The notes below the pieces were generated by a model that saw only the letters and a program-made list of their open reading frames with translations, made no database searches and was not told the origin of the DNA. A DNA stretch of 64,000 nucleotides. Source: Streptosporangium saharense (GTDB lineage Bacteria; Actinomycetota; Actinomycetes; Streptosporangiales; Streptosporangiaceae). Location: contig NZ_JACHJP010000004.1 of assembly GCF_014203715.1 (NCBI RefSeq), forward strand, positions 1-64,000, given 5' to 3'. A program made the position numbers and the translations under genes. This document shows, piece after piece, positions 20,766 through 37,401 of this stretch (position 1 is the first letter of the stretch; each line of letters starts with the position of its first letter).

Positions 20766-20833
20766 GGTTACACCGTAGGCCCGTTCCCCATGATCGCCAC
20801 ACTCCGTCACCACTCCGTAAGGATGAGATCGTT

Positions 20834-21049
20834 ATGGTTCGCCACGCACGTCCGACCTTCGTGGAACATACGGTTGCTGGCATGGTTCGTACCGTCCTGG
20901 GCGTCGTGGGCGCCCTTCTCGCGCTCTACCTGGTCTTCGCGATCGTCATCCCGGCCCTGTTCGGGCTGCTGAAGTTCGTCCTCGTGCTGGGCGTTGTGGC
21001 CCTCATCGTGGTCGCCGCGGTCACGATCGTGAGCAAGTCGTCCAAGTGA
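20834..21049 (+). CDS. Small membrane protein
   Basis: The 71-residue product is almost entirely two adjacent hydrophobic helices (about 22-41 and 43-65) with a short basic end. I do not recognise a family. The ATG at 20834 has AAGGA eleven bases upstream. An internal ATG at 20882 would give a 55-residue protein that keeps both helices. Its stop overlaps the GTG of the next gene, so it is the first gene of a short operon leading to a YidC-type insertase. Confidence 0.65.
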   Translation: MVRHARPTFVEHTVAGMVRTVLGVVGALLALYLVFAIVIPALFGLLKFVLVLGVVALIVVAAVTIVSKSSK

Positions 21050-21297
21050 CCCTGCTGCTCGCCTGGCTCCTCGACGGTGGCGGCGGCGCCGTGACGGCGG
21101 CCGCCGTCATCGGTCTTGGCGTGTTCCTGCTCGCCTGGGCCCTGCGCGGGGTCCCCGTCGCCGCCGAGCCGGGCGGGCACTTCACCCTCTCCATGCGGGA
21201 GAGGGCGGGACGACTCGTGTTCGTCCGCCAGCGCGACCCCGACCGAGCCGGGATGTCCCGGCCGAGAGCACCCTCAGCGGGCCCGGCGCCCGCGTAA
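21046..21297 (+). CDS. Small membrane protein, DUF6412-like
   Basis: The 83-residue product has one N-terminal hydrophobic hairpin (about 1-35) and a cytoplasmic-type tail with MRERAGRLVFVRQRDPDRAG. The Arg-rich tail and its place before a short YidC paralogue match an uncharacterised actinobacterial family that I recall as DUF6412. A domain search would settle it. The GTG start at 21046 overlaps the upstream stop (GTGA), indicating translational coupling. Confidence 0.65.
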   Translation: MTLLLAWLLDGGGGAVTAAAVIGLGVFLLAWALRGVPVAAEPGGHFTLSMRERAGRLVFVRQRDPDRAGMSRPRAPSAGPAPA

Positions 21298-21378
21298 CAG
21301 ACGTCCGGAGCGCGGGCGCCTTCTGTGCTGTTTCCCTCCCTGCCTGTCGCGGGGATCCCAGTCAGAAGGGCTCTGTTC

Positions 21379-22074
21379 ATGTTCGACTCCGTCATCGGGT
21401 TCACCGCCCACCTCATCGACCTCCTCGCCCAGCCCCTGGGCTCGGCCGCCCTGGCCATCGTCGTCTTCACCGTCTGCGTCAGGTTGGTGCTCCTGCCGTT
21501 CGGCGTCATGCAGGCCAGGGGCGCCAGGGCCCAGGCGGCGCTGGCACCGAAGCTCGCCGAACTGCGTAGGCGGCACGGGAAGGACCCCGCGCGGCTCTAC
21601 AAGGAGACGAGCGCCCTGTACACCGCGGAGGGGGTCTCACCCTTCGGCGGCTTCCTGCCCGCCCTGGCGCAGTTGCCGGTCCTCATGGTCGTCTACCGGG
21701 TCTTCGTCTCCCCGACGATCGCGGGCCACGCGAACGCGCTGCTCACCCACGGTCTGTTCGGCGTACAGCTCGGCCAGCACCTCGCCGGGACTGTCGCCGG
21801 GTTCGGGCTGATCAGCGGGCCGACGCTGGTCTTCGCCTGCCTCTTCCTGCTGCTGGCGGCCGTCGCGGCCGTCACCTCGCGGCGGATGCGGCTGACGCCG
21901 GTCGAGGGTCCCGGCTCCGGGATGCTGCGCCGGGTGATGCCGCTGCTGCCGTTCATGACGGTCCTGGCCGCGGCCGTGCTTCCGCTCGCGGCGGGGATCT
22001 ATCTGCTGGTCACGACGGCGTGGACCGCGGCCGAGCGGGCGGTGCTGTACCGCGCCGCGTCCGCGGCGGTGTGA
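21379..22074 (+). CDS. YidC/Oxa1-family membrane protein insertase (short paralogue)
   Basis: YidC/Oxa1 proteins insert and fold membrane proteins. The 231-residue form has the conserved five-helix core only. TM1 is followed by the hydrophilic-groove helix (VRLVLLPFGVMQARG, including the conserved Arg), a cytoplasmic helical hairpin (LAPKLAELRRRHGKDPARLYKET), and then GGFLPALAQLPVLMVVYRVF and three further helices. It lacks the longer N- and C-terminal extensions of the main actinobacterial YidC, so it is likely a second, specialised copy. The ATG at 21379 follows an AGAAGGGC site. Two tiny membrane-protein genes directly upstream may be its clients or partners (inference). Confidence 0.9.
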   Translation: MFDSVIGFTAHLIDLLAQPLGSAALAIVVFTVCVRLVLLPFGVMQARGARAQAALAPKLAELRRRHGKDPARLYKETSALYTAEGVSPFGGFLPALAQLPVLMVVYRVFVSPTIAGHANALLTHGLFGVQLGQHLAGTVAGFGLISGPTLVFACLFLLLAAVAAVTSRRMRLTPVEGPGSGMLRRVMPLLPFMTVLAAAVLPLAAGIYLLVTTAWTAAERAVLYRAASAAV

Positions 22075-22153
22075 TCCGTGGGTCGTCACCGAGGGTGATG
22101 ACGAAGGCCGGGCACCGGTGAAGTCGGCGCCGTCGGCAAAGAAATGGCCGGTC

Positions 22154-22187
22154 GTGCCCCGCCTCATTTTCCCCGTGAGGCGGGACG
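22154..22187. terminator. Bidirectional hairpin between yidC-like and RsbW-like genes
   Basis: CCCGCCTCA and TGAGGCGGG are perfect complements around a nine-base loop containing TTTT. They sit between two convergent genes, where a shared terminator is expected. Confidence 0.5.
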
Positions 22188-22191
22188 CGCC

Positions 22192-22674
22192 CTACCCGCA
22201 CTCGCGCAAGGCGGGTTCGGGGACGGAGACCTTTCCGTTACCCACGGTGTCGGCCGCCGTGACGACCGCCCAGACCGTGGTGATCTCCCCTTCGTGCCTG
22301 ACCCCCCAGCTGGTGGCCAGATATTCGACGATGCCGAGCCCCCGGCCCCCCAGAGAGGAGAGTGTCGGGCGCCCCGCCCTCGGTTCCGTGGCGGCACCGC
22401 CGTCACTCACCGCTACTTCCACGTGCTCGTCGGCCCAGCGCCATGCCACTCTGATCTGACCGGACGGCAACGGATGCGCGTGCCTGAGCGCGTTGCTCAG
22501 CAGCTCGCTCACCACGAGGACCGCGTCGTCGATAGCGGTCTCGTAGACCCCCCATTCCTGCAGGTCAGAGCAGAGGCGTTGGCGTGCGACAGCGACGCTG
22601 GACGGTGCATACGGCAACAGAACGACGCTCGACGCACTCACCTCCCCGTATCCCTGTTCCCCCTGAGGAACCAC
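22192..22674 (-). CDS. RsbW-like ATP-binding protein (anti-sigma/serine kinase fold)
   Basis: A 160-residue GHKL ATPase of the HATPase_c_2 type, common in actinomycetes. The N box is DAVLVVSELLSNALRHA, the second motif is VAVSDGG, and the G box is LGGRGLGIVEYLATSWGV. Family members phosphorylate STAS antagonists or bind sigma factors, and many regulate development. No partner is adjacent. The STAS protein at 17888-18241 is a possible target. The GTG start at 22674 is weakly supported and the N-terminus may be shorter. Confidence 0.85.
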   Translation of the reverse strand: MVPQGEQGYGEVSASSVVLLPYAPSSVAVARQRLCSDLQEWGVYETAIDDAVLVVSELLSNALRHAHPLPSGQIRVAWRWADEHVEVAVSDGGAATEPRAGRPTLSSLGGRGLGIVEYLATSWGVRHEGEITTVWAVVTAADTVGNGKVSVPEPALRECG

Positions 22675-22798
22675 ACCCCAGTACGACCGAAATGCCCCGT
22701 TAGTTGGTCTTAGAAACCGAGCGGCAATTACAGCTTGTGCACATTCGACAATAGATCAGCTCATCCGTTACCGGCCTGTTACCGGGAGTGCGTGTCGG

Positions 22799-24670
22799 TC
22801 AGGTAAGGGCGCCCGGCGTGTCGGCAATGCGCAGCGCCAGCCGCATCCGGGTGCCGCCTCCGGGACGGGGATGGGCCGAGACCTCTCCGCCCTGGGCGCG
22901 GGCGAGGCTGCGGACGATGTAGAGCCCGAGGCCGACACCGCCGAACCGGCGGCGGTCGCCACTGTCTCCCTGGACGAAGCGATCGAAGATCCGCTCCCGG
23001 CTCGTGGGCGTTATGCCCACACCCTCGTCGTCCACTACCACCACCACCCAGTCACCGTCGGTCCAAGCCTCGACCCTGATCAGGCCACCGTCCGGTGAAT
23101 ATTTGAACGCGTTCTCCAACAACTGGCCCAGCACGATATCGGTGGCGATGGCGTCTCCGGACACCGGGGGCAGGTTTTCCGGGACATTCACCTCAACTCG
23201 ATGCACATCAGACAGATCAGGCAGACCAAGCGTCGCCGCCCTGACCAGCCTTCCGAGGTCGATTCCCTCGATCTTCAGGGGCAGCTCACCCGCCCCCGCC
23301 CGGGAACCGAGCAGCAGGTTGTCCATCAGCTTGCCGAGGGAACGCGCCCGCTCGGCGATGATGTGCACCGCGGAACGACGCTCCTGGTCGGTCATGCCGT
23401 CCCAGCGGGCGGCGAGCGTCCCGGCGAAGCCCTGCACCACGGTGATCGGGGTGCGCAGCTCGTGACTGGTCGTGGCCAGGAAGAGGTCCTTGGCCTCCTC
23501 AAGCTCCTTGGCCCCCGTGACGTCGCGGAAGTCGACGACCACCTCGCCCGTCTCGACGATCTCCGCGCTGAGCACGTCGAGCCAGGTCCCTGAGGGAAGC
23601 TGCAGCGTGAGCTTGTCCCCCGGCCCCGGCAGCTCGAACGGCGGCGGCCCCCCGACCACGTCGATCGCGGCGAACCCGGTCAGCTCGGCCGCCGCGGGGT
23701 TCCACTGGACGACCCTGCCCTGCCCGTCAAGCACGGCGATGCCGTCGGCGCTGGCGTCGAAGACCGCCCGCTGGTGGGCGCGCTGCCGTACGGCCTCCTG
23801 GTAGGCCATCGCGTTGCCGACCGCGATGCCCGCGTGCCCGGCCAGCAGTTCGAGCAGCTCAAGCTCGACGTAACCCGCCTTGTGCTTGGCGAACAGGGCA
23901 TACAGCGCGCCGTACGGCCTGCCGCCCGCCATGGCCAGGCCGAGCGCGATCGTGTGCAGACCGGGCAGCTGCGACCAGATCAGCTCGTCGAGACGCCCCT
24001 GGTCGCCCGTCTCCAACATCACGGTCCTGCCGGTGCGCAGCAGCTTGCCGACCAGGCTCGTGCGCATGTGCGCGGTCGAGTCACGCAGCGACTCGGGCAG
24101 CCGGTGACTGGCCACGAGGCGGAGCCTGTCGCCCTCGATGAGCACGAACCCGCCCGCGTCGGCCCCGGTCAGCTCGGTGAGGCTGGCCGCGATCCTGTCG
24201 AGCACGGCGGGCAGCTCCCGCTCGGCGTTGATGTCGGCGACCACGTCGGTGAGCCTGCGCACGAGCCTGGCCCTGCGGACCGCCCGCTCCTGGGCGCTCT
24301 CGTCGTCCTGGACCAGGTGGTAGACGCTGGTGTAGCCCAGCAACGCGCCCGTCTCAGAGCGCAGCGCGCTGGTGTCGAGCCGTACGTCCAGCAGACTGCC
24401 GTCCCTGCGGAAGCGCTTGGTTCGCAGCGAGACCTGGCCGCCGGTGCGCACCCGTTCGAGCACCGCGTTGTGCTCGGCCGTCAGCTCCCCCGGCACCAGC
24501 GGGGGCCTGCGTCCGAGCATCTCCTCGGCAGGCCAGCCGAAGAGACGTTCCGCGGCGGGATTCCACGCCAGGACCGCCTGGTCGCGGTCCAGAACGACTA
24601 TCGCATTCGGGGCACTGGCGACGATCGCGCGGCCGATCCCCTCGTCGCTTTCGGCCCTGTCGTCACCCAC
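22799..24670 (-). CDS. Soluble PAS-GAF-PAS sensor histidine kinase
   Basis: About 623 residues without membrane helices. Domains in order are an N-terminal PAS (IVASAPNAIVVLDRDQAVLAWNPAAERLFG), a GAF domain (about 150-290), and a second PAS (AVFDASADGIAVLDGQGRVV). HisKA follows, with the phospho-acceptor His in TTSHELRTPITVVQGF, then an HATPase domain with FGGVGLGLYIVRSLARAQGG. It senses a small ligand or redox state in the cytoplasm, and no response regulator is adjacent, so it is an orphan. I start at the GTG at 24670, because the longer frame to 24850 runs into the promoter of the divergent ogt gene. Confidence 0.88.
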   Translation of the reverse strand: MGDDRAESDEGIGRAIVASAPNAIVVLDRDQAVLAWNPAAERLFGWPAEEMLGRRPPLVPGELTAEHNAVLERVRTGGQVSLRTKRFRRDGSLLDVRLDTSALRSETGALLGYTSVYHLVQDDESAQERAVRRARLVRRLTDVVADINAERELPAVLDRIAASLTELTGADAGGFVLIEGDRLRLVASHRLPESLRDSTAHMRTSLVGKLLRTGRTVMLETGDQGRLDELIWSQLPGLHTIALGLAMAGGRPYGALYALFAKHKAGYVELELLELLAGHAGIAVGNAMAYQEAVRQRAHQRAVFDASADGIAVLDGQGRVVQWNPAAAELTGFAAIDVVGGPPPFELPGPGDKLTLQLPSGTWLDVLSAEIVETGEVVVDFRDVTGAKELEEAKDLFLATTSHELRTPITVVQGFAGTLAARWDGMTDQERRSAVHIIAERARSLGKLMDNLLLGSRAGAGELPLKIEGIDLGRLVRAATLGLPDLSDVHRVEVNVPENLPPVSGDAIATDIVLGQLLENAFKYSPDGGLIRVEAWTDGDWVVVVVDDEGVGITPTSRERIFDRFVQGDSGDRRRFGGVGLGLYIVRSLARAQGGEVSAHPRPGGGTRMRLALRIADTPGALT

Positions 24671-24794
24671 AGGACCATAGTGCCGTGTCAACTGGCCTGA
24701 TCTTGGCACTTCGTCCGCATGTGCTGACACTCGTTGGGACGATCCGTCCGATACGCTGCGGTGACCACACGCCTGGACACGGAAGGGTGGGGCC

Positions 24795-25370
24795 ATGGCA
24801 TCCGGGTCAGCCAGCGATCTCGACGCCCTGCTGCGGGTGACCTCACCCACCTACGTGGGCGCCACCCACCCGGACATCGCGTTCGGCACCCTCGACGGGC
24901 CCGTAGGACGGCTGACGCTCGCGGCGACACACCGGGGCGTCGTCGCGTGCAGCTACGAGGACGAGAACGTCGTCTTCGAACGCGTCAGCAGGGAGATCGG
25001 CTCCTTCATCGGTCCCGATCCCCGAAGGCTCGACCCGGTCCGCAGGGAGCTCGACGCCTACTTCTCCGGCAGGCTCCGCGCCTTCACGATCACCGTGGAC
25101 CTGCAGCTCGCGACCTCCTTCGCCAGGACCGTGCTGCAGATGATGTTGGCCGTGCCGTACGGAACGGTGACCACCTACCGCGAGATCGCCGAGCGGATCG
25201 GCAGGCCCCGCGCGCTGCGCGCGGTCGGCAACGCGCTGGGCAGCAACCCGGTCTGCGTGATCGTGCCCTGCCACCGCGTGGTCGAGAGCGAGGCCGTCCT
25301 CGGCGGCTACGCCGGAGGCGCGACCGCCAAGGAACGTCTCCTACGCGTGGAGAGCACCGCCCGCCTCTAG
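24795..25370 (+). CDS. ogt: Methylated-DNA--protein-cysteine methyltransferase
   Basis: Repairs O6-alkylguanine by moving the alkyl group to its own Cys. The 191-residue protein has an N-terminal ribonuclease-like domain (GTLDGPVGRLTLAAT). The C-terminal DNA-binding domain has the arginine-finger region VPYGTVTTYREIAERIG, NALGSNPVCVIVPCHRVV with the acceptor Cys in PCHR, and GGYAGGATAKERLL. All catalytic residues are present. The last four bases overlap the convergent permease gene. Confidence 0.95.
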   Translation: MASGSASDLDALLRVTSPTYVGATHPDIAFGTLDGPVGRLTLAATHRGVVACSYEDENVVFERVSREIGSFIGPDPRRLDPVRRELDAYFSGRLRAFTITVDLQLATSFARTVLQMMLAVPYGTVTTYREIAERIGRPRALRAVGNALGSNPVCVIVPCHRVVESEAVLGGYAGGATAKERLLRVESTARL

Positions 25371-26719
25371 CTTTTCGTACGGCGCCGCAGCGCGCCGATG
25401 GCCAGGGTGACCAGGCCGGAGACCAGGAAGGCACCGACGGCGGCGCTCATCCAGGGCTGCGGGACGAACCCGACAGCCTGCCTGGCGCCGTCCCAGACCG
25501 CCGCCCACCAGGAGACCTGCGAGGGCGCCGCGAGCATCCACCAGGTGACGAAGCCGAGCGCCCACGGCAGGACCATGACCAGACGGGAGGGCGCGTTCTC
25601 TGAGATGTCCCAGTTCCTGCCCCTGCCCAGCAGGAAGTAGTCGACGGCCAGCACGCCGAACATCGGCACGAACACCGCGCCGATGATGCTGAGGAAGGCG
25701 CCGTAGGAGTTGACGTCCACGACCAGGGCGATGCCCGTGGTCAGCACGCCGACGGCCACCGAGAAGACACGGCGGTCGATCCTCGGCATCAGGTTCTGCA
25801 AAGACATCGCGGTCGAGTAGACGTTCGCGAACGACTGGTCGGTCTCGCGCAGCACGAGGATTCCGAAGAACAGCGCGCCCAGCGGGGCCGCGACGAACGG
25901 TCCGAACACCGCGGTCGGGTCGCCCGCGACCACGCCGTGCCCGGCGAGCGCGACCGCGTAGACGCCGACGGCCAGACAGGCGACCTGGGCGATGGTGTAG
26001 CCGCCGACGATGCCGGTGAAGGCGGCCCGGCTCGACCGCGAGTGCCTGGCGTAGTCCGCCGCGACCGGCACCCAGGAGACCGAGAGGGCGACCACGAAGT
26101 CGACAGCGGCGGCGAAGGAGTCCCAGGAACCGCCGCTCTGCGCGGGGGTCTCACGCAGGAAGACCACCGCGAACCAGACGACGGAGACGACCACGCCGAT
26201 CGTGACGAAGCGCCTGAGCAGCCGGATGGCTCCCAGCGGGTAGATGGTCAGCGCCGTCGTCAGCACCCCCGCCGCGATTGCCCAGACCGCGTAGGGGACC
26301 GAGGGCCCGAAGATCGCCTGGGCGCCCATCGCGACGACCCACAGCTCGAACGCTCCCCAGCCGATCATCTGGATGACGTTGAGCACGGTCGGGACGTAGG
26401 ACAGCCGCACCCCGAACAGGCCGCGCAGCAGCACCATCGCGGGCTGCCCCGTCTGCACTCCCGGCACCGCGGCCAGACCGACCATCGCGGTGCCGATGAG
26501 GCTGCCGACCAGGGCCGCGAGCAGCGCGGCGCCGAGCGTGAGCGGGTTGTCGTCACCCAACGGGTTGATCAGGAAGAGCGCGAAGGAGAAGCCGAGCAGG
26601 CTGACGCCCAGGTTGGCCCAGAACGCTCCCTGGTCGAGCGTGCCGAGGGTCTTCGGAGGTGCCTGGTCGAGGGTGAGGGGGGCCTCGGCATGCTTGGAAT
26701 TGATGACGTCAGACGTCAT
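25367..26719 (-). CDS. cytX: NCS1-family HMP/thiamine-precursor permease (CytX-like), TPP-riboswitch controlled
   Basis: A 450-residue NCS1 (purine-cytosine permease) transporter with about twelve membrane helices. The N-terminus LDQGAFWANLGVSLLGFSFALF is the NCS1 signature region, and VQTGQPAMVLLRGLFG and MIGWGAFELWV are conserved helices. On its own it could carry cytosine or another base. A TPP riboswitch lies directly before its ATG, and that combination marks CytX, a proposed importer of the thiamine pyrimidine HMP. The riboswitch ends a few bases before the start, so control is probably by hiding the ribosome-binding site. The 3' end meets ogt convergently. Confidence 0.9.
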   Translation of the reverse strand: MTSDVINSKHAEAPLTLDQAPPKTLGTLDQGAFWANLGVSLLGFSFALFLINPLGDDNPLTLGAALLAALVGSLIGTAMVGLAAVPGVQTGQPAMVLLRGLFGVRLSYVPTVLNVIQMIGWGAFELWVVAMGAQAIFGPSVPYAVWAIAAGVLTTALTIYPLGAIRLLRRFVTIGVVVSVVWFAVVFLRETPAQSGGSWDSFAAAVDFVVALSVSWVPVAADYARHSRSSRAAFTGIVGGYTIAQVACLAVGVYAVALAGHGVVAGDPTAVFGPFVAAPLGALFFGILVLRETDQSFANVYSTAMSLQNLMPRIDRRVFSVAVGVLTTGIALVVDVNSYGAFLSIIGAVFVPMFGVLAVDYFLLGRGRNWDISENAPSRLVMVLPWALGFVTWWMLAAPSQVSWWAAVWDGARQAVGFVPQPWMSAAVGAFLVSGLVTLAIGALRRRTKS

Positions 26720-26723
26720 GACG

Positions 26724-26812
26724 CTCCCTACGCCGGCATTACCCGGACAGGTTCATGCGGTCGGCGACAGCCGTAGTCGCCCTCTCAGCCTGGTTGCCCC
26801 AAGCTCCCGCGT
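26724..26812 (-). promoter_or_regulatory. TPP riboswitch (THI element)
   Basis: The minus strand contains all conserved blocks in order: a 5' P1 arm GGGAGC, the pyrimidine-sensing GGCTGAGAGGGCG, a variable P3 arm, and the pyrophosphate-binding region. The last of these reads ATGAACCTGTCCGGGTAATG, followed by CCGGCGTAGGGA, which closes P1. It lies directly upstream of the NCS1 permease ATG at 26719. Confidence 0.97.
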
Positions 26813-26880
26813 CTGTTTACGTGCCGAACCGGGATCACCCCAGTTCGCGCCCCAATGATGCACTATTTGTCCGCTCCCGG

Positions 26881-27717
26881 CTACTTCCCTGGTTCGGCTG
26901 GCAGCCGCACGACGGCGACACCGGCCTGGGACTCGCCGAACCCCCAGCCCGCGACGAGGGAGCAGCCGACCGCTTCCAGGAGATCGCTCCACGGCCAGTG
27001 GCCGGTGCCGTAGTAGAAGCCGCCCTCGCTGCGCGCGTCACGCTCGGAGAGGCAGAGCATGCGGAGATGGTCGCGAAGCGCGGGGTGCGTGACCGCGCCC
27101 AGCCTCTCCTCCCAGGGCTCGTCGGCGGACCTGTCGTGGATCGGCACCAGGTGTTCGGGGCCACGCTCGGTGAACGTGGCGGCCCGCATCGCGTCGGTGA
27201 GGGTGCCGTCGGTGGCGACGCGCAGCAGCACGGTCAGCCAGGTGTTCAGTTTCTTGGACGCCTTGTCGGTCAGGTCGACGCCGTGTCGGCCCAGGAGCGG
27301 CCCCAGCTCCGCGCCGCGTACCAGCCCGGCTTCTCCGGCTGGGGAGAAGGTCCGCAGGTCGGCGACGAAGGCGTCGTCGAACGGCCGGGGACCCTTGTGC
27401 CCGTCAGCGCCCCACGGCCCCGTTCCCGCCAGGAGATCGGCGTCGAAGTGGAACAGCGACCCACTCAGGTCGAACCGCCACGTCCAGGGGGAGAAGGGGT
27501 ACTCACCATCCGAATCCGGAAGGAACCTCGGCTTCCGATCCGACAGCGTTTCAGGAGTGGCCCAGGGGTTCGGGAACAGGAACTCGTCGAGGGAGTCCGA
27601 GGCGTAGTAGACCCCGTATCCGGCGGTGGGGTCGGTGACCGGCTTCCCGCCGAGCAGGATGTCGAAGGCACCGGCCAGCGCGGCATCCCACCCGTCGAGG
27701 CCGGTCTCGGGTGTCAC
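26881..27717 (-). CDS. Protein of unknown function downstream of a decayed TPP-riboswitch leader
   Basis: I do not recognise this 278-residue soluble protein. The first 100 residues are aromatic- and Pro-rich (GYGVYYASDSLDEFLFPNP, then WTWRFDLSGSLFHFDADLL). A middle segment, KKLNTWLTVLLRVATDG, looks helical. The tail contains GGFYYGTGHWPWSDLLEAVG and VAGWGFGESQAGVAVVRLP. There is no signal peptide or membrane helix. Codon usage fits the host. Its 5' region carries a shortened copy of the cytX riboswitch leader, so it was probably under thiamine control or arose beside a leader duplication. A link to thiamine metabolism is therefore possible but unproven. Confidence 0.75.
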   Translation of the reverse strand: MTPETGLDGWDAALAGAFDILLGGKPVTDPTAGYGVYYASDSLDEFLFPNPWATPETLSDRKPRFLPDSDGEYPFSPWTWRFDLSGSLFHFDADLLAGTGPWGADGHKGPRPFDDAFVADLRTFSPAGEAGLVRGAELGPLLGRHGVDLTDKASKKLNTWLTVLLRVATDGTLTDAMRAATFTERGPEHLVPIHDRSADEPWEERLGAVTHPALRDHLRMLCLSERDARSEGGFYYGTGHWPWSDLLEAVGCSLVAGWGFGESQAGVAVVRLPAEPGK

Positions 27718-27761
27718 GATGGCGCTCCTTCAGTCGTTTCGGTTCGGCCGTTGGCACGCGT

Positions 27762-27843
27762 CCGGACAGGCGACCCTCTCAGCCCGGTTGGCCTCAGGTT
27801 TCTTACGCGTCGAGCCGGGATCAGCCAGATTCGCGCCCAATGA
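27762..27843 (-). repeat. Degenerate, internally deleted copy of the TPP-riboswitch leader
   Basis: This segment aligns with 26743-26858. The shared blocks are CCGGACAGG, CCCTCTCAGCC (CUGAGAG on the RNA strand), GGTTG, CCGGGATCA and TTCGCGCCCAATGA. Compared with the intact element, about 26 bases covering P3 and the GAA of the GAACCTG block are deleted. The 3' GGTAATGCCGGCG half is absent. It cannot fold as a canonical TPP aptamer. Confidence 0.8.
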
Positions 27844-28062
27844 GGATTAAACCGGTTGCTTCCCGCACGAGAGGGTTGTTTGACTGGCCCCGAGCAGACG
27901 CAGATGAGGGGGGATGTTTCATGCCCGCGGGCACCGAGGACGCCGTCGTGCGCCCTCGATCGGGTCATCATCCCCACCGGAGGCTTCGGCGGGGGTGATC
28001 CCGCGTGGGTCGCGACGGCACGGTCAGCCGATTCGCCACCCATCCCGTCTGGAGTTCCTCCG

Positions 28063-28416
28063 TTGCCACGCCATCGCGCTCGTGTCAGTTCTTTCCGCTG
28101 CGTCAACTGCCGCCTCGACGTGTCCACCGACGCGCCGGGCACCGCGCACCGCAACCACTGCCCCACCTGCCTGTGGTCCAGGCACCTCGACCGCACCCCG
28201 GGTGACAGGGCCGCCGACTGCGCCTCGGGCATGGCGCCGATCGCCATCCACGCGCGCCAGGACGGCGAATGGGCGATCATTCACCGCTGTACGGCATGCG
28301 GCACCCTCGACGCCAACCGCGTCGCCGGTGACGACAACCCCCTGACCCTGATGCGTCTGGCCGTCGCCCCGCTGGCCCGTCCACCCTTCCCCCTGGACTA
28401 CTTCGCCCGGCTCTGA
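28063..28416 (+). CDS. RNHCP-domain protein (zinc-ribbon-like, unknown function)
   Basis: About 117 residues with four CxxC-type pairs: FRCVNCRLDV, then HRNHCPTCLWSRHLD (containing the name-giving RNHCP), and HRCTACGTLDANRVAGDDNP. This is the RNHCP family of small actinobacterial/Firmicute proteins with two probable zinc sites and no known function. No ATG or GTG lies close to the domain. A TTG at 28063, with GGAG eight bases upstream, is my preferred start. The longer open frame to 27856 has atypical composition. Confidence 0.8.
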   Translation: MPRHRARVSSFRCVNCRLDVSTDAPGTAHRNHCPTCLWSRHLDRTPGDRAADCASGMAPIAIHARQDGEWAIIHRCTACGTLDANRVAGDDNPLTLMRLAVAPLARPPFPLDYFARL

Positions 28417-28433
28417 GACGCCCCGCCGTACGG

Positions 28434-29522
28434 TCAGACGTAGTGGAACTCGGGGTGGGGGTGCATCAGGAAGTCATGGTGGGAGATGTTCCAGGCGTAG
28501 GCACCGGCCATGGCGAACTCCACCACCTTCCCGGGTTCCAGGGCGATCGGTACGTTCTCGGCCAGTTGGTCCTTGGGGGTGCATAGCTGGCCGCCGATCG
28601 TGATCGGCTCTCCGGGGACGCCCGGAATAACGGGCTGGCTGTGGCCCTTGGTCGCGGGGGTGCGGATGTGGTGGGTGCCTCCCGCGACGACGGCGAACAG
28701 GCGGCCGTGGACCCGTTTGACGTCGATGACCTGGGTGGCGTACCGCCCGCAGTAGACCGAGACCGACCGGCCAGGCTCGATCCTGAGCGTCTCACCGGAG
28801 CGGCGCAGCCCGGCCAGGCCCTTGCCGTAGGCGGCCCAGTCGAAACGGTCGTCGGGATCGGCGTAGGAGACGGCCATGCCGCCCCCGAGGTTGATCTCGG
28901 TCACGCCCAGGGAGCGGGCGTAGTCGAGGACTTGCTCGTTGAGCTGGAGCATGCGTTCGGCGTCCAGGCCGCTGGCCAGGTGCGCGTGGACGCCGCGAAG
29001 CCGTACCGCACCCTGCTGGTCCAGCAGGTCCAGGCAGACGGCGACGTCGTCGGGGTCCATGCCGAAGGGGGTCGCGCCGCCGCCCATGGCCAGGGCCACG
29101 TCACCGAGTGAGACGGCGAGATTGACCCGGAGCAGGATGTCGGCCTCCCGGCCCGTGGCGATCAGACGGCGCAGTTCACCGGGGCTCTCCACGTGCAGCC
29201 GGGCCACCTTGGCGTCCAGGGCCGCGGCCAGTTCGGCGTCGGTCTTGCCGGGTCCGCCGAAGGCGATCGGGACCTCGGGAAGCACCCCGAGCACGTGCGC
29301 GAGCTCACCGCCCGAGGCGACCTCGACGCCGTCCACGTGCCGGGCCAGCACCCGCAACAGTTCGGGGTCGGGATTGGCCTTGGCCGCGTAGTACAGCTCG
29401 ACGTCGCCCAACGCGTCGCGGACGGCCGCCGCGTGCTCGTCCAGCGCGGCCAGGTCGTAGACGAAGGCGGGCAGCCTCCCGGCCTCCGCGAGTTCGTGAG
29501 CCCGTATGGTCGCTGCGTCCAT
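28434..29522 (-). CDS. PLP-dependent fold-type III decarboxylase (diaminopimelate/ornithine decarboxylase-like)
   Basis: A 362-residue alanine-racemase-fold decarboxylase. The PLP-binding Lys48 is in YYAAKANPDPELL. The phosphate-binding Gly-rich loop is in EINLGGGMAVSY, with EPGRSVSVY next. The C-terminal active-site Cys is in GQLCTPKDQLAENV. It is shorter than LysA (about 420 residues) and ends in an unusual His-rich tail, SHHDFLMHPHPEFHYV. It is closer to the decarboxylases used in siderophore or other specialised pathways, and the substrate is unknown. The ATG at 29522 has GGAG five bases upstream. The frame also runs on through the CRISPR repeats, but that part is not coding. Confidence 0.88.
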   Translation of the reverse strand: MDAATIRAHELAEAGRLPAFVYDLAALDEHAAAVRDALGDVELYYAAKANPDPELLRVLARHVDGVEVASGGELAHVLGVLPEVPIAFGGPGKTDAELAAALDAKVARLHVESPGELRRLIATGREADILLRVNLAVSLGDVALAMGGGATPFGMDPDDVAVCLDLLDQQGAVRLRGVHAHLASGLDAERMLQLNEQVLDYARSLGVTEINLGGGMAVSYADPDDRFDWAAYGKGLAGLRRSGETLRIEPGRSVSVYCGRYATQVIDVKRVHGRLFAVVAGGTHHIRTPATKGHSQPVIPGVPGEPITIGGQLCTPKDQLAENVPIALEPGKVVEFAMAGAYAWNISHHDFLMHPHPEFHYV

Positions 29523-29629
29523 GGGATCTCCGATCGGCCCGGCGGCGGTGACGTTGTTGATCAAATCGTAGAAGATCTTCCACCGCCCGGCCGGACACTC
29601 GGCGCGACAGCCGTACGACCAATCGGCAC

Positions 29630-29719
29630 GGAACCATCCCCGCACGCGCGGGGAGCACCCCTCGTGGCCACGACGCAGCGTCCGGCGTGGGGGACCATCC
29701 CCGCACGCGCGGGGAGCAC
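29630..29719 (-). CRISPR. Minimal type I-E CRISPR array: two repeats, one spacer
   Basis: Two 29-base repeats (29630-29658 and 29691-29719) differ at one position and are separated by a 32-base spacer (29659-29690), giving the 61-base period of type I-E. The repeat contains the hairpin CCCCGCACGCGCGGGG, and on the minus strand begins GTGCTCCCC and ends ATGGTCCC, the actinobacterial type I-E consensus. The substituted copy (ATGGTTCC) is the left one, which would be leader-distal if transcription is on the minus strand. No cas gene is in the window. Confidence 0.85.
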
Positions 29720-29990
29720 CCTCGGTGACCTGCGGATCCATCAGCGAATGTGGCCCAAAATCATCACTTTCATTGACTTGGGCATTTCAGACATACCCCT
29801 GACAGGGCGATGAGAGAGCCGGAAGGCCGCAAGCGCAGGGAGTTGGGGGGCGCGGGGGGTGCGGGCCCGCGCCGGGGAGGTCGCGCTGGTGGTCACCTGA
29901 GAGGTCCTGAGGATGCTCGGTGACGGCGCGTTCGGAGGGGATGAAAGGGCCGGTTCAGCGCGGCCGTCGCTGTGTGTACGACGTGAGGGG
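29720..29990. other. Non-coding stretch to the right of the CRISPR repeats
   Basis: No gene. The first 90 bases are AT-richer (for example CCCAAAATCATCACTTTCATT) than the rest and would be on the leader side of the array if it reads on the minus strand. The remainder is G-rich with no feature I recognise. Confidence 0.4.
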
Positions 29991-30314
29991 TCAGGCCACG
30001 AACGGGGTGGCGCCGCTCTCGCTGACCATGGGGCGGCCCGCGAAGTTCCAGGACTGCATGCCGCCGCCGACGTTGATCGCCTCCCGGCCGATGCGGTTGA
30101 GCCAGGCGGCGGCGTGCGCCGAGCGGCCGCCGACCCTGCACACCACGTAGACGGGCGCGTCCTGCGGAACCTCCTCGACCCGGGCCTGCAGCTCGCCAAG
30201 CGGGATGTGGACGGCCGTCGGGGCGTGCCCCGCCTGCCACTCGTCGAGCTCACGCACGTCAAGCAGGAACGCGTCGTCCGGCACGGCCTGCGCTTCGATC
30301 TCAGGAACACTCAT
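29991..30314 (-). CDS. Single-domain rhodanese-like protein
   Basis: A 107-residue rhodanese fold. It has FLLDVRELDEWQAGHAPTAV, HIPLGEL and the active-site loop VVCRVGGRSAHAA with the persulfide-carrying Cys (about residue 63). NVGGGMQSW follows. The loop is six residues long, typical of sulfurtransferases rather than Cdc25-like phosphatases. It probably moves sulfane sulfur in the cytoplasm, with the acceptor unknown. The start is the ATG at 30314. An upstream extension of the frame lacks rhodanese homology. Confidence 0.92.
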   Translation of the reverse strand: MSVPEIEAQAVPDDAFLLDVRELDEWQAGHAPTAVHIPLGELQARVEEVPQDAPVYVVCRVGGRSAHAAAWLNRIGREAINVGGGMQSWNFAGRPMVSESGATPFVA

Positions 30315-30426
30315 GCACCCATTGTTCCAAGTCCGCCGACCGATGTGGCGCAAAGTGCCCCAGCAGCCCCCGACTCGTCCACAAGCGGCCACCATTCGAC
30401 TCCGCAGAGCAACCTTTGACGAAATG

Positions 30427-30473
30427 GACAACCTGGTTTACCTTCTACCCAAGAAAAGACAACCTGGTTTACC
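30427..30473 (+). promoter_or_regulatory. Tandem 16-base operator-like repeats upstream of the cupin gene
   Basis: GACAACCTGGTTTACC occurs twice, exactly, at 30427-30442 and 30458-30473. The 31-base spacing equals three helical turns. Each copy contains the palindrome AACCTGGTT. The second copy ends 12 bases before the ATG at 30486, so a bound repressor would block initiation. Confidence 0.7.
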
Positions 30474-30485
30474 AATGGAGGAACC

Positions 30486-30860
30486 ATGACCGTCGCGAAC
30501 CTGGCGGACGCCCCCGTCTTCGCCAACGGCGACACCACCACGCGCTCGCTGGCCGTACCCTCACGAGGCTCGTCCGAGCTCGCCGTCTGGGCCTTCGACA
30601 TGAGCCCCGGCGCCTCGGGGCCCGAGCACACCGTCGATCGCGAGGAGGTGTTCGTCGTCACCTCGGGGCGGGTTGTGGCCGTCCTCGGCGGCGTCGAGCA
30701 CGTGGCCGGGGAGGGGGACGCGCTGATCGTCTCCCCGAACACCCCGTTCGCGCTGCGCAACCCCTCCCAGACCGAGCGGGCCACCGGCACCGTCTGCACC
30801 TCGGCCGGGATCACCGCCTCCCTCGGCGGGAAGACCATCCTGCCCCCGTGGGCCCAGTGA
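30486..30860 (+). CDS. Cupin-domain protein
   Basis: A 124-residue single cupin barrel. The first cupin motif is degenerate, SGPEHTVDREEVFVVTSGRV (GxxHxHxxxxE in the family, here with only one His). The second is GEGDALIVSPNTPFALRNP, which lacks the usual His. Metal binding is therefore doubtful and it may be a ligand-binding rather than enzymatic cupin. GGAGG lies six bases before the ATG. Two identical operator-like repeats precede it, indicating tight specific control by an unlinked regulator. The stop abuts the convergent glycosylase gene with no spacer. Confidence 0.85.
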   Translation: MTVANLADAPVFANGDTTTRSLAVPSRGSSELAVWAFDMSPGASGPEHTVDREEVFVVTSGRVVAVLGGVEHVAGEGDALIVSPNTPFALRNPSQTERATGTVCTSAGITASLGGKTILPPWAQ

Positions 30861-31742
30861 TCACTTGAGCAGGCGTGACATGCGGCGGTCGGCCAGCGGC
30901 TTGCCGCCCGTCTGACAGGTCGGGCAGTACTGCAGGGAGGAGTCGGCGAAGGAGACCTCCCTGATCGTGTCTCCGCACTCCGCACAGGGCTCGCCGGTCC
31001 TGCCGTGCACCCGGAGGCCGGACTTCTTCTCGGCCTTGAGGTCCTTGGCCGCCAGCCCACGGGCCCGGTCGAGCGCGGTGCGCAGGGTCGTGACGATGGC
31101 CTCGTGGAGGGCGGTGACCTGCTCGTCCGTCAGGCTTCCCGCGACCTTGAAGGGAGAGGTCCGCGCCGCGTGCAGGACCTCGTCCGAATAGGCGTTGCCG
31201 ATGCCCGCGATCACCTTCTGGTCGCGGAGCAGCCCCTTGATCTGGGCGCGGCTGCCGTTCAGGATGCCGCCGAGGACCTCGGCGGTGAAGCCGTCGGACA
31301 GCGGGTCGGGGCCGAGCGCGGCGATCCCCGGCACCTCACCGGGGTCGCGCACGACGTAGACGGCCAGCCGCTTCTGCGTGCCCGCCTCGGTCAGCTCGAA
31401 GCCCGGCTCCTGCTCCCCCGTCTCGTACGGCGCCAGCCGTACCCGCAGCGCCAGGGGGCCCTTGCCCGGCCTGACCGCCCTGGCACGGGAGAGGTCGTCA
31501 TGCCAGCGCAACCAGCCCGCGCGGGCCAGATGCGTGACGAGGTGGAGCCCGTCGCAGTCGAGGTCGATGAACTTGCCGTGCCTGGTCACCCCGGTCACCG
31601 TGCGCCCGGCCAGGGCGGTGACCGGAGGATCGACGGTCTTCAGCGCCTGGAAGCCGTAGACCTCGACGGCCCCGACCTTCCTGCCGACCGCGTGCCCGCG
31701 CAGGAACTCAGCGAGCGACTCCACCTCGGGAAGCTCTGGCAT
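30861..31742 (-). CDS. Fpg/Nei-family DNA glycosylase/AP lyase
   Basis: Base-excision repair enzyme of 293 residues. The N-terminus PELPEVE supplies the catalytic Pro2 and Glu3. A Lys in VTRHGKFIDLD corresponds to the conserved beta-hairpin Lys. The helix-two-turn-helix contains IAGIGNAYSDEVLHAA. The C-terminal zinc finger has CAECGDTIREV and YCPTCQTGG. All key residues are present. Whether it prefers oxidised purines (Fpg) or pyrimidines (Nei) cannot be told from motifs alone, and actinomycetes usually carry several paralogues. Confidence 0.93.
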   Translation of the reverse strand: MPELPEVESLAEFLRGHAVGRKVGAVEVYGFQALKTVDPPVTALAGRTVTGVTRHGKFIDLDCDGLHLVTHLARAGWLRWHDDLSRARAVRPGKGPLALRVRLAPYETGEQEPGFELTEAGTQKRLAVYVVRDPGEVPGIAALGPDPLSDGFTAEVLGGILNGSRAQIKGLLRDQKVIAGIGNAYSDEVLHAARTSPFKVAGSLTDEQVTALHEAIVTTLRTALDRARGLAAKDLKAEKKSGLRVHGRTGEPCAECGDTIREVSFADSSLQYCPTCQTGGKPLADRRMSRLLK

Positions 31743-31756
31743 GCCCCCAGGCTAAT

Positions 31757-32362
31757 TCACAACACATCCCAGAAGGCGATCTCGTGGCGCATGCCCTCGG
31801 TGAAGAAGCGCGCTGCCCTTGCGGGGTCGGTGACGGTCTCGTCGATCATCGTGGCGACGCGTCCGGCGAGTTCGGCAAAGCCGGGGTCGGCGTAGGTGTC
31901 GATCCAGGGCCGGTAGCGGGACTCGGCGGGGGCGTCGGCCGCCAAGGCCTTGCCGAGCGTCGAGTAGCCCCACATGCAGGGGTAGAGCGCGGCCAGCCCG
32001 TCGGCGTAGTCGGCGGCCGACTCCAGCAGGAACGTGGTGTAGGCCGCGCAGGCCGGTCCCTTCTTCACCCCGCCCAGGTCGGCGCCGAAGCCCGCCGACA
32101 GCGAGCGGTGCAGGTCCAGCTCCTCGTGGAGGGTGGCGTGGGCCAGATCGACCAGGACGCCCAGGTGGTCGTCGGGGGCCTGCCAGGCCAGCCGGGAGAA
32201 GACCCGCACGTAGTCGAGCAGGAACAGGTAGTCCTGTTCGAGCCACGACCGGAACACCGGTTCCGGCAGGTCTCCCCTGGCGATCCCCACCACCGTCGGA
32301 TGGGCGAGCTGGACGTCCACGAGAGGACGGCCAATGGCGTGCAGTTCCTCGGAAACGCTCAT
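31757..32362 (-). CDS. tenA: TenA-family aminopyrimidine aminohydrolase (thiaminase II)
   Basis: TenA hydrolyses aminopyrimidine products of thiamine breakdown to HMP for thiamine salvage. The 201-residue all-helical protein keeps the catalytic residues at near-canonical positions: Asp44 in LEQDYLFLLDY, Cys129 in AALYPCMWGYS, and Glu193 in GMRHEIAFWD. Length is normal. It starts at the ATG at 32362, since the upstream frame extension lacks homology. It lies 5 kb from the TPP-controlled permease, so the region holds two thiamine-salvage genes, but there is no riboswitch directly before tenA. Confidence 0.92.
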   Translation of the reverse strand: MSVSEELHAIGRPLVDVQLAHPTVVGIARGDLPEPVFRSWLEQDYLFLLDYVRVFSRLAWQAPDDHLGVLVDLAHATLHEELDLHRSLSAGFGADLGGVKKGPACAAYTTFLLESAADYADGLAALYPCMWGYSTLGKALAADAPAESRYRPWIDTYADPGFAELAGRVATMIDETVTDPARAARFFTEGMRHEIAFWDVL

Positions 32363-32445
32363 AAGTCGAGCATTATCGCAGTTCACCCCATCTCGCCTGG
32401 TACGGCCCCGCAGCATGAAAACCTGCGCGGCATAGGATTTTGGGC

Positions 32446-33096
32446 ATGACGACCATCGCTGAGGAGATCCTGCTGCTCGCCTACGACGAGGCCGAGGGCA
32501 GGCAACTGATCGGCTCGACCGAACTCGACGCCGCCCTCGGCGGCTCCCTCCTGGCGGAGCTGGCCGTCAGCGGTCGCATCGACCTCACGAACAAGAAGGT
32601 CGCCGTCCTCGACCCCACGCCGCTCGGCGAGCGGGAGCTCGACGCGACGCTGGCCCTGATCGCCGCCGAGACCAGGCAGCGCAAGCCCGACTGGTGGGTG
32701 CGCAAGCTGTACTCCTCCGGGCTGCGCAGGCGGCTGCTGTCCGGCCTGGCCGAGCGGGGCGTGCTCGACGAGCGGCGGCGCAAGATCCTGGGCATCTTCC
32801 CCAGCACGCGCTACCCGGAGCGCGATCCCCAGATCGAGCAGGAGATCAGGGAGCGGATCGGCGGCGTGCTGACCGGGGCCGAGCCCGACGAGCGCTCCGC
32901 GGTGCTGATCGCCGTACTGCACGCCGCGAAGATCGACCGCAAGGCCTTCCCCGGGGCGGACAAGGCGCGGATCAAGGAGATCACCGAGGGCAGCTGGGCG
33001 GCCGACGCGGTGGCCAAGAGCATCGCGGCCGTCAACGCCGCCGTGGTCGGCGCGGTCGTGGCGGCGAGTGTCGCCGCCACGGCCGGCACCGGCTGA
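32446..33096 (+). CDS. GPP34 (GOLPH3/VPS74-like) family protein
   Basis: A 216-residue GPP34-domain protein, with TIAEEILLLAYDEAEGRQL at the N-terminus and LDATLALIAAETRQRKPDWWVRKL in the middle. It ends in an Ala/Val-rich hydrophobic tail (VVGAVVAASVAATAG) that may associate with the membrane. Eukaryotic GOLPH3 binds phosphatidylinositol 4-phosphate and glycosyltransferases, but bacterial members, abundant in actinomycetes, are uncharacterised. The ATG at 32446 follows a TTG two codons earlier. Confidence 0.9.
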   Translation: MTTIAEEILLLAYDEAEGRQLIGSTELDAALGGSLLAELAVSGRIDLTNKKVAVLDPTPLGERELDATLALIAAETRQRKPDWWVRKLYSSGLRRRLLSGLAERGVLDERRRKILGIFPSTRYPERDPQIEQEIRERIGGVLTGAEPDERSAVLIAVLHAAKIDRKAFPGADKARIKEITEGSWAADAVAKSIAAVNAAVVGAVVAASVAATAGTG

Positions 33097-33099
33097 GGG

Positions 33100-34335
33100 C
33101 TATTTGCCCAGAACGTCCTGAGGGACCGGCTTGTCCTCGGCGAGGGCCTTGAACATGCGCAGCGCCTTGGCCCGGTCCCACTGGACCACGGCCTGGCCGT
33201 CGATGGTCGGCAGGGAGCCGACGGGGACGACTGTCGTGATCGGGTTGTCGCCCATCGCCAGGCCCAGGGAGAGCAGGTCGAAGGTGCCGGTCTCCTCGCC
33301 GACCTCGACCGAGTCCGCAGCGCTGAGGGCGAGCGGGATGGAGGTGAAGGGGTTGAGCAGCACACCGGGGCTCGCCGCCTTCTTCACCACGGCGGAGAAG
33401 AACTGCCGCTGGCGCTGGGTCCGCTCGAAGTCGGGGATGGCGCCGGTCGCGCGGGTACGCACGTAGCCGAGGGCCGTCCCGCCGTCCAGCACCTGGCGGC
33501 CCTTCTTCAGGTTGATCCCGGCCTTGCGGTCCTTGATGTCCTGCTTGACGTCGATCTCGACTCCGCCGATGGCGTCCACGATGCCCACGAAGCCGCCGAA
33601 GCCGATCTCCATGTAGTGGTCGATCCTGATGCCCGTCACCTGCTCGACGGTCTTGGGCAGCAGCTTCTGGCCGCCCTCGAAGGCGTAGGCCGCGTTCAGC
33701 TTGCCCCGGCCATGGCCGTCGATCGGCACGTAGGAGTCACGCGGGAGGCTGACCAGGGTGGGACGGTCGCCGGTCGCCGGGATGTGCAGGAGCATCATCG
33801 TGTCGGTCCTGCGCCCGACTGCCGAGCCTGTGGCGAACTTCTTGCGCTGGGCCTTGGTCAGGCCGGCGCGGCTGTCGGAGCCGACCAGCAGCCAGTTGGT
33901 GCCGGGGGTGTCGGCGGGACGGCCCTCGTAGTCACCGAGCGCGTCCACCCGCTTCAACCGCGAGTTGATCATGAAGTAGCCGCCGATCGCGACCACCAGC
34001 ACCACCACGAGCAACCCGACCAGGATCCGTACGGCCAGCCTGCCCGGCCGCTTCGGCCGCCAGGAGCGCCTCGGGACGTTGTTCCCCGAACCGGGGGGTG
34101 GCGGTGGTGGCCCACCCGGGCCGCCCGGGGCGGGCTGCAGGGGCCTCACCGCGCCGGAACCCTGTCGCGGCTTGCCGTACACCCTGGAGGTCGCCCGTGG
34201 CTCCCCGCCGGGAGCATTCCTGGAGGAACCCTGCGCCGGATAGGCGGGCTGGCCCGCTGCTCGCGGCGACGCGGGACCCGGCGTCGGCGGCCGCAGGGCA
34301 CGGGTGCGGTCGTCGTCTTCGGTCCAGTCACCCAC
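33100..34335 (-). CDS. LytR-CpsA-Psr (LCP) family phosphotransferase
   Basis: LCP enzymes attach wall polymers from lipid carriers to peptidoglycan outside the cell. Of 411 residues, the first roughly 103 are a Pro/Gly/Arg-rich cytoplasmic tail. A membrane anchor follows (VRILVGLLVVVLVVAIGGYF), then the LCP domain. Its conserved elements are NWLLVGSDSR, GRRTDTMMLLHI, LVSLPRDSYVPI, KLNAAYAFEGG, GIVDAIGGVEIDV and GYVRTRATGAIPDFERTQRQ, with the Arg/Asp catalytic and lipid-phosphate-binding residues intact. The long disordered N-tail could be a kinase substrate given the Pkn cluster nearby (inference). Confidence 0.93.
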   Translation of the reverse strand: MGDWTEDDDRTRALRPPTPGPASPRAAGQPAYPAQGSSRNAPGGEPRATSRVYGKPRQGSGAVRPLQPAPGGPGGPPPPPPGSGNNVPRRSWRPKRPGRLAVRILVGLLVVVLVVAIGGYFMINSRLKRVDALGDYEGRPADTPGTNWLLVGSDSRAGLTKAQRKKFATGSAVGRRTDTMMLLHIPATGDRPTLVSLPRDSYVPIDGHGRGKLNAAYAFEGGQKLLPKTVEQVTGIRIDHYMEIGFGGFVGIVDAIGGVEIDVKQDIKDRKAGINLKKGRQVLDGGTALGYVRTRATGAIPDFERTQRQRQFFSAVVKKAASPGVLLNPFTSIPLALSAADSVEVGEETGTFDLLSLGLAMGDNPITTVVPVGSLPTIDGQAVVQWDRAKALRMFKALAEDKPVPQDVLGK

Positions 34336-34454
34336 GTGGTATTCCCGCCGCCTCTCGAACTCACGATGAGACCGTCATTATCGACGCTACGTCGTGGTTC
34401 CGGCGCACGTAGGCGTGTGCTCAAGCTTTCGCTATGGAAAAGTACATAAAGGGG

Positions 34455-34467
34455 TGGTTGTCAACCA
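34455..34467. promoter_or_regulatory. Palindromic operator-like site
   Basis: TGGTTG-T-CAACCA is a perfect 13-base palindrome in the 295-base divergent region between the LCP gene and the CNNM/CBS operon, in an AT-richer context typical of a promoter. The bound regulator is unknown. Confidence 0.45.
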
Positions 34468-34630
34468 ACTATGTGATCGTCGGCCCATCCGGAAACATCG
34501 ACCCCCAGGTGGATCGTTACCGTAGAGGACGACCGCTGCTCGAAAGGAAGATCGTGTCCACTTCGGACCCGTGGAGTACCTGCCCGTGCGAACGCACGGG
34601 AACCACTGACCCAGCCGGGGGAAGCACCCG

Positions 34631-37104: not shown

Positions 37105-37118
37105 ATCTTCGGAAGACG

Positions 37119-37155
37119 CGGGCCGGTGGGAGATGTCCTCTCACCGGCCCGTTTC
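37119..37155 (+). terminator. Rho-independent terminator of the CNNM operon
   Basis: CGGGCCGGTG pairs perfectly with CACCGGCCCG and is followed by TTTCTCT on the plus strand. Confidence 0.85.
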
Positions 37156-37362
37156 TCTGTCAGCGTAATCAGGCCTGCCGTACCGGCTCGTGTAAGTGAG
37201 ACGAAAGCGGCCAGTAAGGGTGGACTGCTACACCTTGCCGTCGAACCGACATCCGGGTCTTCTCCACGAGGGAGCGAACGACTAGTTTGATCACCGATCA
37301 GCCCGTAACCGCCACCCTCCACGGACGGACCCCGATGCGCGAGCGCGCCCCAGAGACAACGC
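37156..37362. other. Intergenic region, no feature recognised
   Basis: About 200 bases between two terminators, with no plausible gene or RNA on either strand. The stretch around 37280-37310 is AT-richer and could hold a promoter. Confidence 0.4.
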
Positions 37363-37394
37363 AAAAACCCCGGTGCTTTCGCGACCGGGGTCTT
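37363..37394 (-). terminator. Rho-independent terminator of tRNA-Leu
   Basis: ACCCCGGT and ACCGGGGT form an eight-base stem. On the minus strand it is followed by TTTTTG. It lies directly after the tRNA 3' end. Confidence 0.85.
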
Positions 37395-37401
37395 GATCGA
37401 G

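Follow-up and report, generated by a model that had tools for sequence, protein, structure and literature searches.

Half of a TPP riboswitch leader in front of an unrelated gene of Streptosporangium saharense: probably a relic, possibly with promoter capture

In Streptosporangium saharense, sequences of the TPP riboswitch type are found upstream of a cytX-type permease gene and, a second time, upstream of a gene for a 278 aa protein. An earlier note on this DNA regarded the second, distal sequence as a decayed TPP riboswitch and considered that it might place the 278 aa protein in thiamine biology. This raises the question of what the distal copy is, whether it still senses TPP and what it reveals about its gene. 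In the following, the window denotes the whole stretch of DNA that was analysed (64,000 nt), and all positions refer to it. The proximal copy and its gene serve as reference:

25367-26719, minus strand: cytX-type permease gene (Pfam Transp_cyt_pur, 64.8 bits; TIGR02358 CytX, 203.4 bits, under the cut-off of 309.85 of this model)
26717-26884, minus strand: proximal intact cytX leader with upstream region, hairpin, aptamer and Shine-Dalgarno sequence
26724-26816, minus strand: intact cytX aptamer for TPP (60 bits with Rfam over 26708-26820; 108 bits with the genus model, to whose training set it belongs)
26825-26847, minus strand: 5' hairpin before the proximal aptamer (CGAACUGGG-GUGAU-CCCGGUUCG, nine of nine pairs including one G-U; fold of 26810-26853 z = -2.30)

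The segment 26708-26820 (minus strand) is the sole TPP match in the window at the Rfam cut-off (60 versus 54.3 bits). It is located directly upstream of a permease of the cytosine/HMP class, i.e. a complete aptamer precedes a thiamine-type gene, whose match to the CytX model is below the model's own cut-off. AGGGAG at the 3' end of the aptamer is taken as the Shine-Dalgarno sequence of cytX. The permease gene would remain under the control of this riboswitch. The distal region comprises the following features:

26881-27717, minus strand: gene for the 278 aa protein with a GTG start; its TAG stop codon (26881-26883) lies inside the left edge of the proximal leader
27718-27757, minus strand: 5' flank of the 278-aa gene with its ribosome-binding site (GAAGGAGCGC), common to orthologues in other genomes
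27758-27773, minus strand: junction between leader copy and gene flank, with the ambiguous block CCTGTCCGG (delimited by a random 65-mer test)
27774-27860, minus strand: distal truncated cytX-type TPP leader copy with upstream region, 5' hairpin, P2 3' arm and CUGAGAGGG (alignment against shuffles and repeat listing)
27811-27833, minus strand: degenerate 5' hairpin of the distal copy (CGAAUCUGG-CUGAU-CCCGGCUCG, seven of nine pairs by hand; fold of 27800-27841 z = -1.07, not exceptional)

The similarity between both leaders is real. Segment 27771-27860 (minus strand) scores 77.0 against the proximal cytX leader; 500 dinucleotide shuffles had a mean of 29.1 (sd 4.5, maximum 47.0), and none was as high. 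The same is true (0/500) for the cytX leader of the congener S. carneum (84.5), the thiC leader of the window genome (72.5) and a second leader of S. carneum (72.0). This segment has no match upstream of the 278-aa gene's two closest orthologues (26.5 and 31.0, equalled by 318/500 and 184/500 shuffles). Over its whole length, the distal leader scores 100 against the proximal one (1000 dinucleotide shuffles: mean 40.6, sd 5.8, maximum 69); at unrelated places in the window, a stepped scan gave no more than 67. Another tool also reports the direct repeats 26817-26852/27803-27838 (36 nt, 81%) and 26780-26799/27774-27793 (20 nt, 90%). Both CTGAGAGGG and the upstream motif CATTGGG-CGCGAA are present, which bears out the claimed retention of a CUGAGAG block and a common upstream region.

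The adjacent segment 27718-27775 behaves in the opposite way. Both orthologue flanks match it (52.5 and 45.0, with 0/500 shuffles as high in either case), and the proximal leader does not (23.0, equalled by 351/500 shuffles); values against the thiC leader (31.0, 29/500) and the second leader of S. carneum (33.5, 14/500) are intermediate. The distal element is therefore half a leader joined to the gene's own 5' flank. These alignments place the end of the secure aptamer similarity at about 27774, in the middle of the aptamer, and the join at about 27758-27773. For 27742-27758, none of 3915 random 65-mers is as good as the flank of the 278-aa gene in S. carneum; the short piece has no match in the corresponding flank of genome G013 (59% of random 65-mers as good). 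Segment 27758-27776 reaches 18 points against the 3' part of the proximal leader, equalled by 6.3% of 3908 random 65-mers. It was here that the earlier note saw a further retained aptamer block, CCTGTCCGG, and a deletion of about 26 bases over P3 and the GAA of GAACCUG. Both fall into the junction and are not significant: the block is an exact 9-base match to the aptamer from which it possibly descends, and it was rejected as proof of an internal deletion because random 65-mers reach its score that often. The end at about 27774 is compatible both with a 26-base deletion and with a plain stop of the leader. There is also a weak match of 27740-27775 to the second-leader stretch of S. carneum (29.5, 5/500 shuffles), which, by eye, may be due to TCCGGACGCGT in the upstream flank of the stretch and not to the aptamer. 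Retested against the 3' part of this leader alone, it yields 20.5, with 21% of random 65-mers as good.

The distal copy has also lost more than its 3' half, whose absence was rightly noted before. GCGGGAGC, comprising P1 and the start of P2, is invariant in 21/21 aligned intact leaders, and the distal copy has a gap and GAAACC instead. In addition, its upstream region is altered (GCATCAT to CCTCAT) and has no clear left edge. It carries CCGGGC like the thiC leader of the window genome; CCAGGC is found in the cytX leaders of both species and in the second leader of S. carneum. Overall, the similarity of the second leader exists, but it covers less than was claimed.

Can such a half-leader still act as a riboswitch? 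Rfam finds no TPP match in 27650-27950 even at E<=10, and the cut-off of RF00059 (54.3 bits) is not reached. A covariance model of the genus was built from an alignment of 21 intact TPP leaders out of 28 loci; of the remaining seven, four are without the AGGGAG end used for cutting and three (L063, L065, L066) were missed by the motif. With filters off, the distal copy obtains 6.4 bits from this model (E = 0.086 over 401 bases), and chance places in the 64-kb window reach 12.4 bits. The cytX leaders of the window (108.0 bits) and S. carneum (107.0 bits) and the thiC leader of the window genome (102.4 bits) score high by construction because they belong to the training set; the second leader of S. 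carneum obtains 59.3 bits. What is kept in the distal copy is the CUGAGA joining region beside P2 (GGCTGAGAGGG at 27774-27784). P3, GAACCUG and P4/P5 are not present; junction and gene flank occupy this stretch. The distal RNA does not fold better than its shuffles (z = +0.88, 158/200 as good), and the fold of the proximal leader has a z of -1.51. Without P1, P3, GAACCUG, P4/P5 and Shine-Dalgarno sequence, the distal RNA should therefore be unable to switch, and the copy has, to judge from its sequence, almost certainly lost TPP sensing. The pair is no tandem TPP riboswitch in the sense of two intact aptamers in one leader: a single aptamer is intact, and a gene lies between the copies. In our opinion, 27774-27860 is probably the 5' half of a duplicated cytX-type TPP leader that no longer senses TPP, and the site is read as a riboswitch relic, possibly with promoter capture.

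The 278 aa protein finds nothing in Pfam, NCBIfam, PHROGs, PADLOC or the PDB sequences, and its single-sequence fold has a mean pLDDT of 39.1. Of 338 family genomes, 30 contain homologues of its gene, among them the window genome itself. Close orthologues with 83-84% identity are encoded at other loci in S. carneum and G013. The stop codon of the window copy is located at GTAGCCGGGAG, and both orthologues end with different residues. When the upstream regions of eight homologues were aligned with that of the window, a CGACATGAAGGAG-like ribosome-binding region was common to six (L003, L004, L121-L124); in the more distant homologues L125 and L005 it is not clear. Between S. carneum and G013, dS is 0.071 for the 278-aa gene versus 0.258 for cytX. 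This difference points to horizontal transfer, by which the gene was probably acquired. The ORF is open, and a dN/dS of 0.44-0.47 between the window copy and the two orthologues indicates that it is probably no pseudogene. An Rfam TPP riboswitch within about 1.5 kb was found at none of 25 homologue loci (10 + 15) outside this place; L011 and L136-L144 were left out of the scan. Therefore, the relic is all that connects the gene with thiamine, and the suggested role of the protein in thiamine biology is not supported. The junction of gene and leader was not seen in the relatives examined, either.

More can be learned from the gene order around cytX in the genus, where a third gene is of importance:

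29991-30431, minus strand: rhodanese-domain ORF (Pfam), a homologue of which lies directly upstream of the cytX leader in nine congeners

In 9/12 loci in which both genes were found, rhodanese and cytX are 177-325 nt apart. Longer distances are found in the window (3273 nt), S. carneum (2833 nt) and G007 (2084 nt). In 4/16 loci, the rhodanese gene was not found by this search; blastn puts that of G001 about 2 kb away. In S. carneum, rhodanese is followed by a second cytX-type leader (L094 4096-4256), which about 1.8 kb of other DNA separate from the intact leader in front of cytX. Besides its 59.3 bits in the genus model, this second leader reaches 15.3 bits with RF00059 (cut-off 54.3); the P2 and P3 pairs are kept, and it is mismatched from the GAACCUG helix and P4/P5 onward. 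It resembles the distal copy in its rhodanese-cytX interval and its upstream module, but differs from it by paired P2 and P3 and by other DNA, instead of the 278-aa gene, after it. A second copy around cytX exists in 2/16 genus genomes including that of the window (window 98 and 100.5, S. carneum 232.5 and 247). For the remaining 14 genomes, no second copy was found with both leaders as probes, the second-best place scoring 63-74, which is background; the scan covered 2.4-10 kb around cytX, and the contig of G011 ends about 0.6 kb upstream of its aptamer. G001 and G007 were rejected as further cases, as their extra 2 kb between rhodanese and cytX are an MFS transporter and a glyoxalase-like ORF (assigned with Pfam in G001) with no second leader. 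The gain of these ORFs (L100 5158-6822 in G001, L104 3721-5385 in G007) is an observation in its own right on the same interval in a second lineage.

The simplest reading of these data would be that the leader was duplicated before the window species and S. carneum diverged. The two are sisters in the cytX tree (98/97) and group weakly in the rhodanese tree (86/86). A point against this reading is the TenA tree, where the window pairs with the one-leader genome G008 (95/91) and S. carneum adjoins both (97/96). Furthermore, no sequence was recognised as common to the window and S. carneum between the leaders or upstream of the distal copy. Local alignment of the S. carneum interval 5' of the second leader with the window flanks gave no information, with scores of 69 and 85 versus 92-96 for random stretches; the 213.5 obtained for the 278-aa gene came from a far longer stretch. 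The lack of recognisable common sequence, together with CCGGGC versus CCAGGC, means that one common duplication is not proved, and CCGGGC hints at an older or thiC-like source of the distal copy. The idea of a leader duplication followed by decay is nevertheless supported by the second leader of S. carneum in the same interval, even though this copy does not precede the same gene and may represent a separate event.

The same comparison bears on the view that the second leader never contained a TPP aptamer and that the similarity is due to a common promoter motif only. The end of the secure similarity half-way into the aptamer would fit this view. However, the matched P2 3' arm and CTGAGAGGG are inside the aptamer, and the copy of the same interval in S. 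carneum is nearly complete, which favours decay; we consider this view very improbable.

At the sequence level, the comparisons yield a half-leader joined to the gene's own flank, an intact proximal aptamer, a fuller copy in S. carneum and a dS pattern as of a mobile gene. The course of events could have been as follows. The ancestral order, as judged from the congeners, would be rhodanese, one TPP leader and cytX. As the comparison shows, the lineage to which the window species and S. carneum belong has acquired a further leader copy between rhodanese and cytX, with foreign DNA between the copies; this may go back to one common duplication. The duplication would have come first, and afterwards the gene would have landed in the duplicated leader. 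In the window species, the mobile 278-aa gene, which has a ribosome-binding site of its own and has kept about 40 nt of its flank, is joined to the broken distal copy at about 27758-27774, inside the former aptamer; its other end runs into the proximal copy, which contains its stop codon. At most, the distal copy might supply promoter and 5' hairpin to the 278-aa gene.

Whether the front half of the leader has a life of its own depends on the upstream module. CATTGGG-CGCGAA-CTG plus hairpin precedes three genes in the window genome, thiC (Pfam ThiC), cytX and the 278-aa gene, with 0 matches for the reversed-pattern control. In 341 family genomes, the exact pattern occurs at three places in this genome, two in S. 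carneum and one in G240; the reversed control gave one match each in three genomes, among the matches listed. The 7 kb around the G240 place have no blastn match to window 20001-40000. Exact pattern matching misses diverged forms, one of which precedes cytX in G011 and rules out that the cytX leaders of all congeners are without the module. G011 (L110 about 1760-1890, minus strand) is a third Streptosporangium species with the hairpin before the cytX aptamer, with the UGAU loop kept. When pairs are counted by hand with the alignment gap shifted to the loop, four copies have all nine pairs of the stem (window thiC, window cytX and both S. carneum leaders, some with one G-U), G011 has 8/9 and the distal window copy 7/9. 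Two-sided changes are found at two pairs: the fourth, counted from the stem base, is A-U except in G011 (G-C), and the second, counted from the loop, is G-C except in thiC (A-U). The hairpin is probably, though not certainly, a real RNA element, because six sequences are few. In the cytX leader, by eye, other congeners have TGACATAAT at the position of TGCATCAT in this clade, which is therefore taken as the putative -10 region. A sigma-70 scan of 26700-28000 found no site at either the distal or the intact leader, a point against any promoter role in the preferred reading.

The thiC leader of the window genome (L043 / L095 5590-5800; G000:C1:1097640-1097789) is a chimera of a cytX-type promoter region, hairpin and 5' aptamer side with a thiC-type 3' end, apparently formed by a crossover inside the aptamer. 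Its columns 0-99 are more similar to cytX leaders. For the module itself, in windows at columns 40-80, identity is 0.78-0.84 to the two cytX leaders versus 0.42-0.70 to three other thiC leaders; in the aptamer middle (columns 100-140) it is equally close to a thiC leader and cytX, and near the 3' end (column 160) values are 0.97 to S. carneum thiC and 0.70 to cytX. The thiC leader of S. carneum is without the module. A left edge at GTARCC is common to window thiC, both S. carneum leaders and, nearly, window cytX.

From these data, a first alternative can be formulated: The leader's front half, comprising promoter, 5' hairpin and 5' half of the aptamer, would be a recombining cassette. Exchanges within aptamers, or at the left leader edge, would put it before other genes, and the 278-aa gene would have captured it here as a working promoter. 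The module before thiC with its cytX-like front and thiC-like 3' end, the S. carneum thiC leader without it, the diverged form before G011 cytX, the restriction of the exact pattern to three of the 341 genomes and the GTARCC edge in three copies and nearly in a fourth are in favour of it. However, ordinary recombination between paralogous leaders accounts for thiC, the crossover point is vague over columns 100-140, and the altered distal upstream region has no clear left edge. To our knowledge, neither an enzyme nor a target site or terminal repeat has been described for such a cassette. We regard this alternative as possible, but rather unlikely.

On a par with it stands a second, similarly tentative alternative, according to which the distal copy is plain debris and the 278-aa gene is silent or transcribed from another promoter. 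The degenerate hairpin, a fold no better than shuffles and the missing sigma-70-like site, which is likewise missing at the intact leader, agree with it; the open reading frame with its dN/dS and the upstream region of the orthologues cut off at the junction argue against it. That the remnant was re-purposed as an RNA switch or regulator for another ligand, as had also been suggested, is even less credible than the promoter-motif view, since despite the retained P2 3' arm and CUGAGA the RNA does not fold better than shuffles, both the hairpin and the 5' side of P2 are altered, and a second example of the same form for testing conservation was not found.

Among open-licence papers, none on this locus was found. 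Compared to the RF00059 riboswitch of cytX, from which its upstream region, P2 3' arm and CUGAGAGGG derive, the distal copy has neither P1, P3, GAACCUG, P4/P5 and Shine-Dalgarno sequence nor an Rfam match. An excerpt of one paper gives tandem TPP riboswitches for many thiamine genes of Bacillota (PMC12452182). As in that excerpt, two TPP elements are near one thiamine gene, but here about 1 kb and a gene are between them, and only one aptamer is intact. Duplication and horizontal movement were described for lysine riboswitches, as excerpted from PMC5584792. Similarly, a riboswitch was copied with its surroundings and diverged; in the excerpt it was copied with its own gene, whereas here the broken copy precedes an unrelated gene.

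Several further observations were made in the vicinity and elsewhere in the genome. At 29630-29730 (plus strand), two CRISPR-like repeats (CCATCCCCGCACGCGCGGGGAGCAC), which we take to be of type I-E, are 61 nt apart and form a one-spacer mini-array. At up to 2 mismatches, the repeat has 24 copies in the genome, the others being clustered on contigs C8, C14 and C16. The longest decarboxylase ORF (28434-29741, minus strand) crosses these repeats at its N-terminus; its real start is therefore probably downstream of them. A third TPP-like element (L045, G000:C2:1297051-1297124) scores 34.4 bits, below the cut-off, and has by eye about 100 nt inserted before GAACCTG. It is located upstream of an FAD-dependent oxidoreductase gene (Pfam DAO), perhaps thiO.

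Riboswitch relics escape annotation because their scores fall below the family cut-offs. Within one genus, three states are found: an intact TPP leader, a partly decayed copy in S. carneum and a half-leader on a foreign gene in the window. Together with the chimeric thiC leader, they suggest that conserved aptamers can act as recombination points for promoters. For gene annotation, caution is advisable: a TPP-like sequence upstream is not sufficient to assign a gene to thiamine metabolism. A bolder and still more doubtful generalization than the capture at this one site is that the TPP leader's front half, marked by the hairpin with the conserved UGAU loop, is a recombination cassette in this Streptosporangium clade and that crossovers in the aptamer shift promoters between thiC, cytX and incoming foreign genes. 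If the cassette reading were true, riboswitches would be sites of promoter shuffling, and the distal copy would be a promoter capture caught after the aptamer broke.
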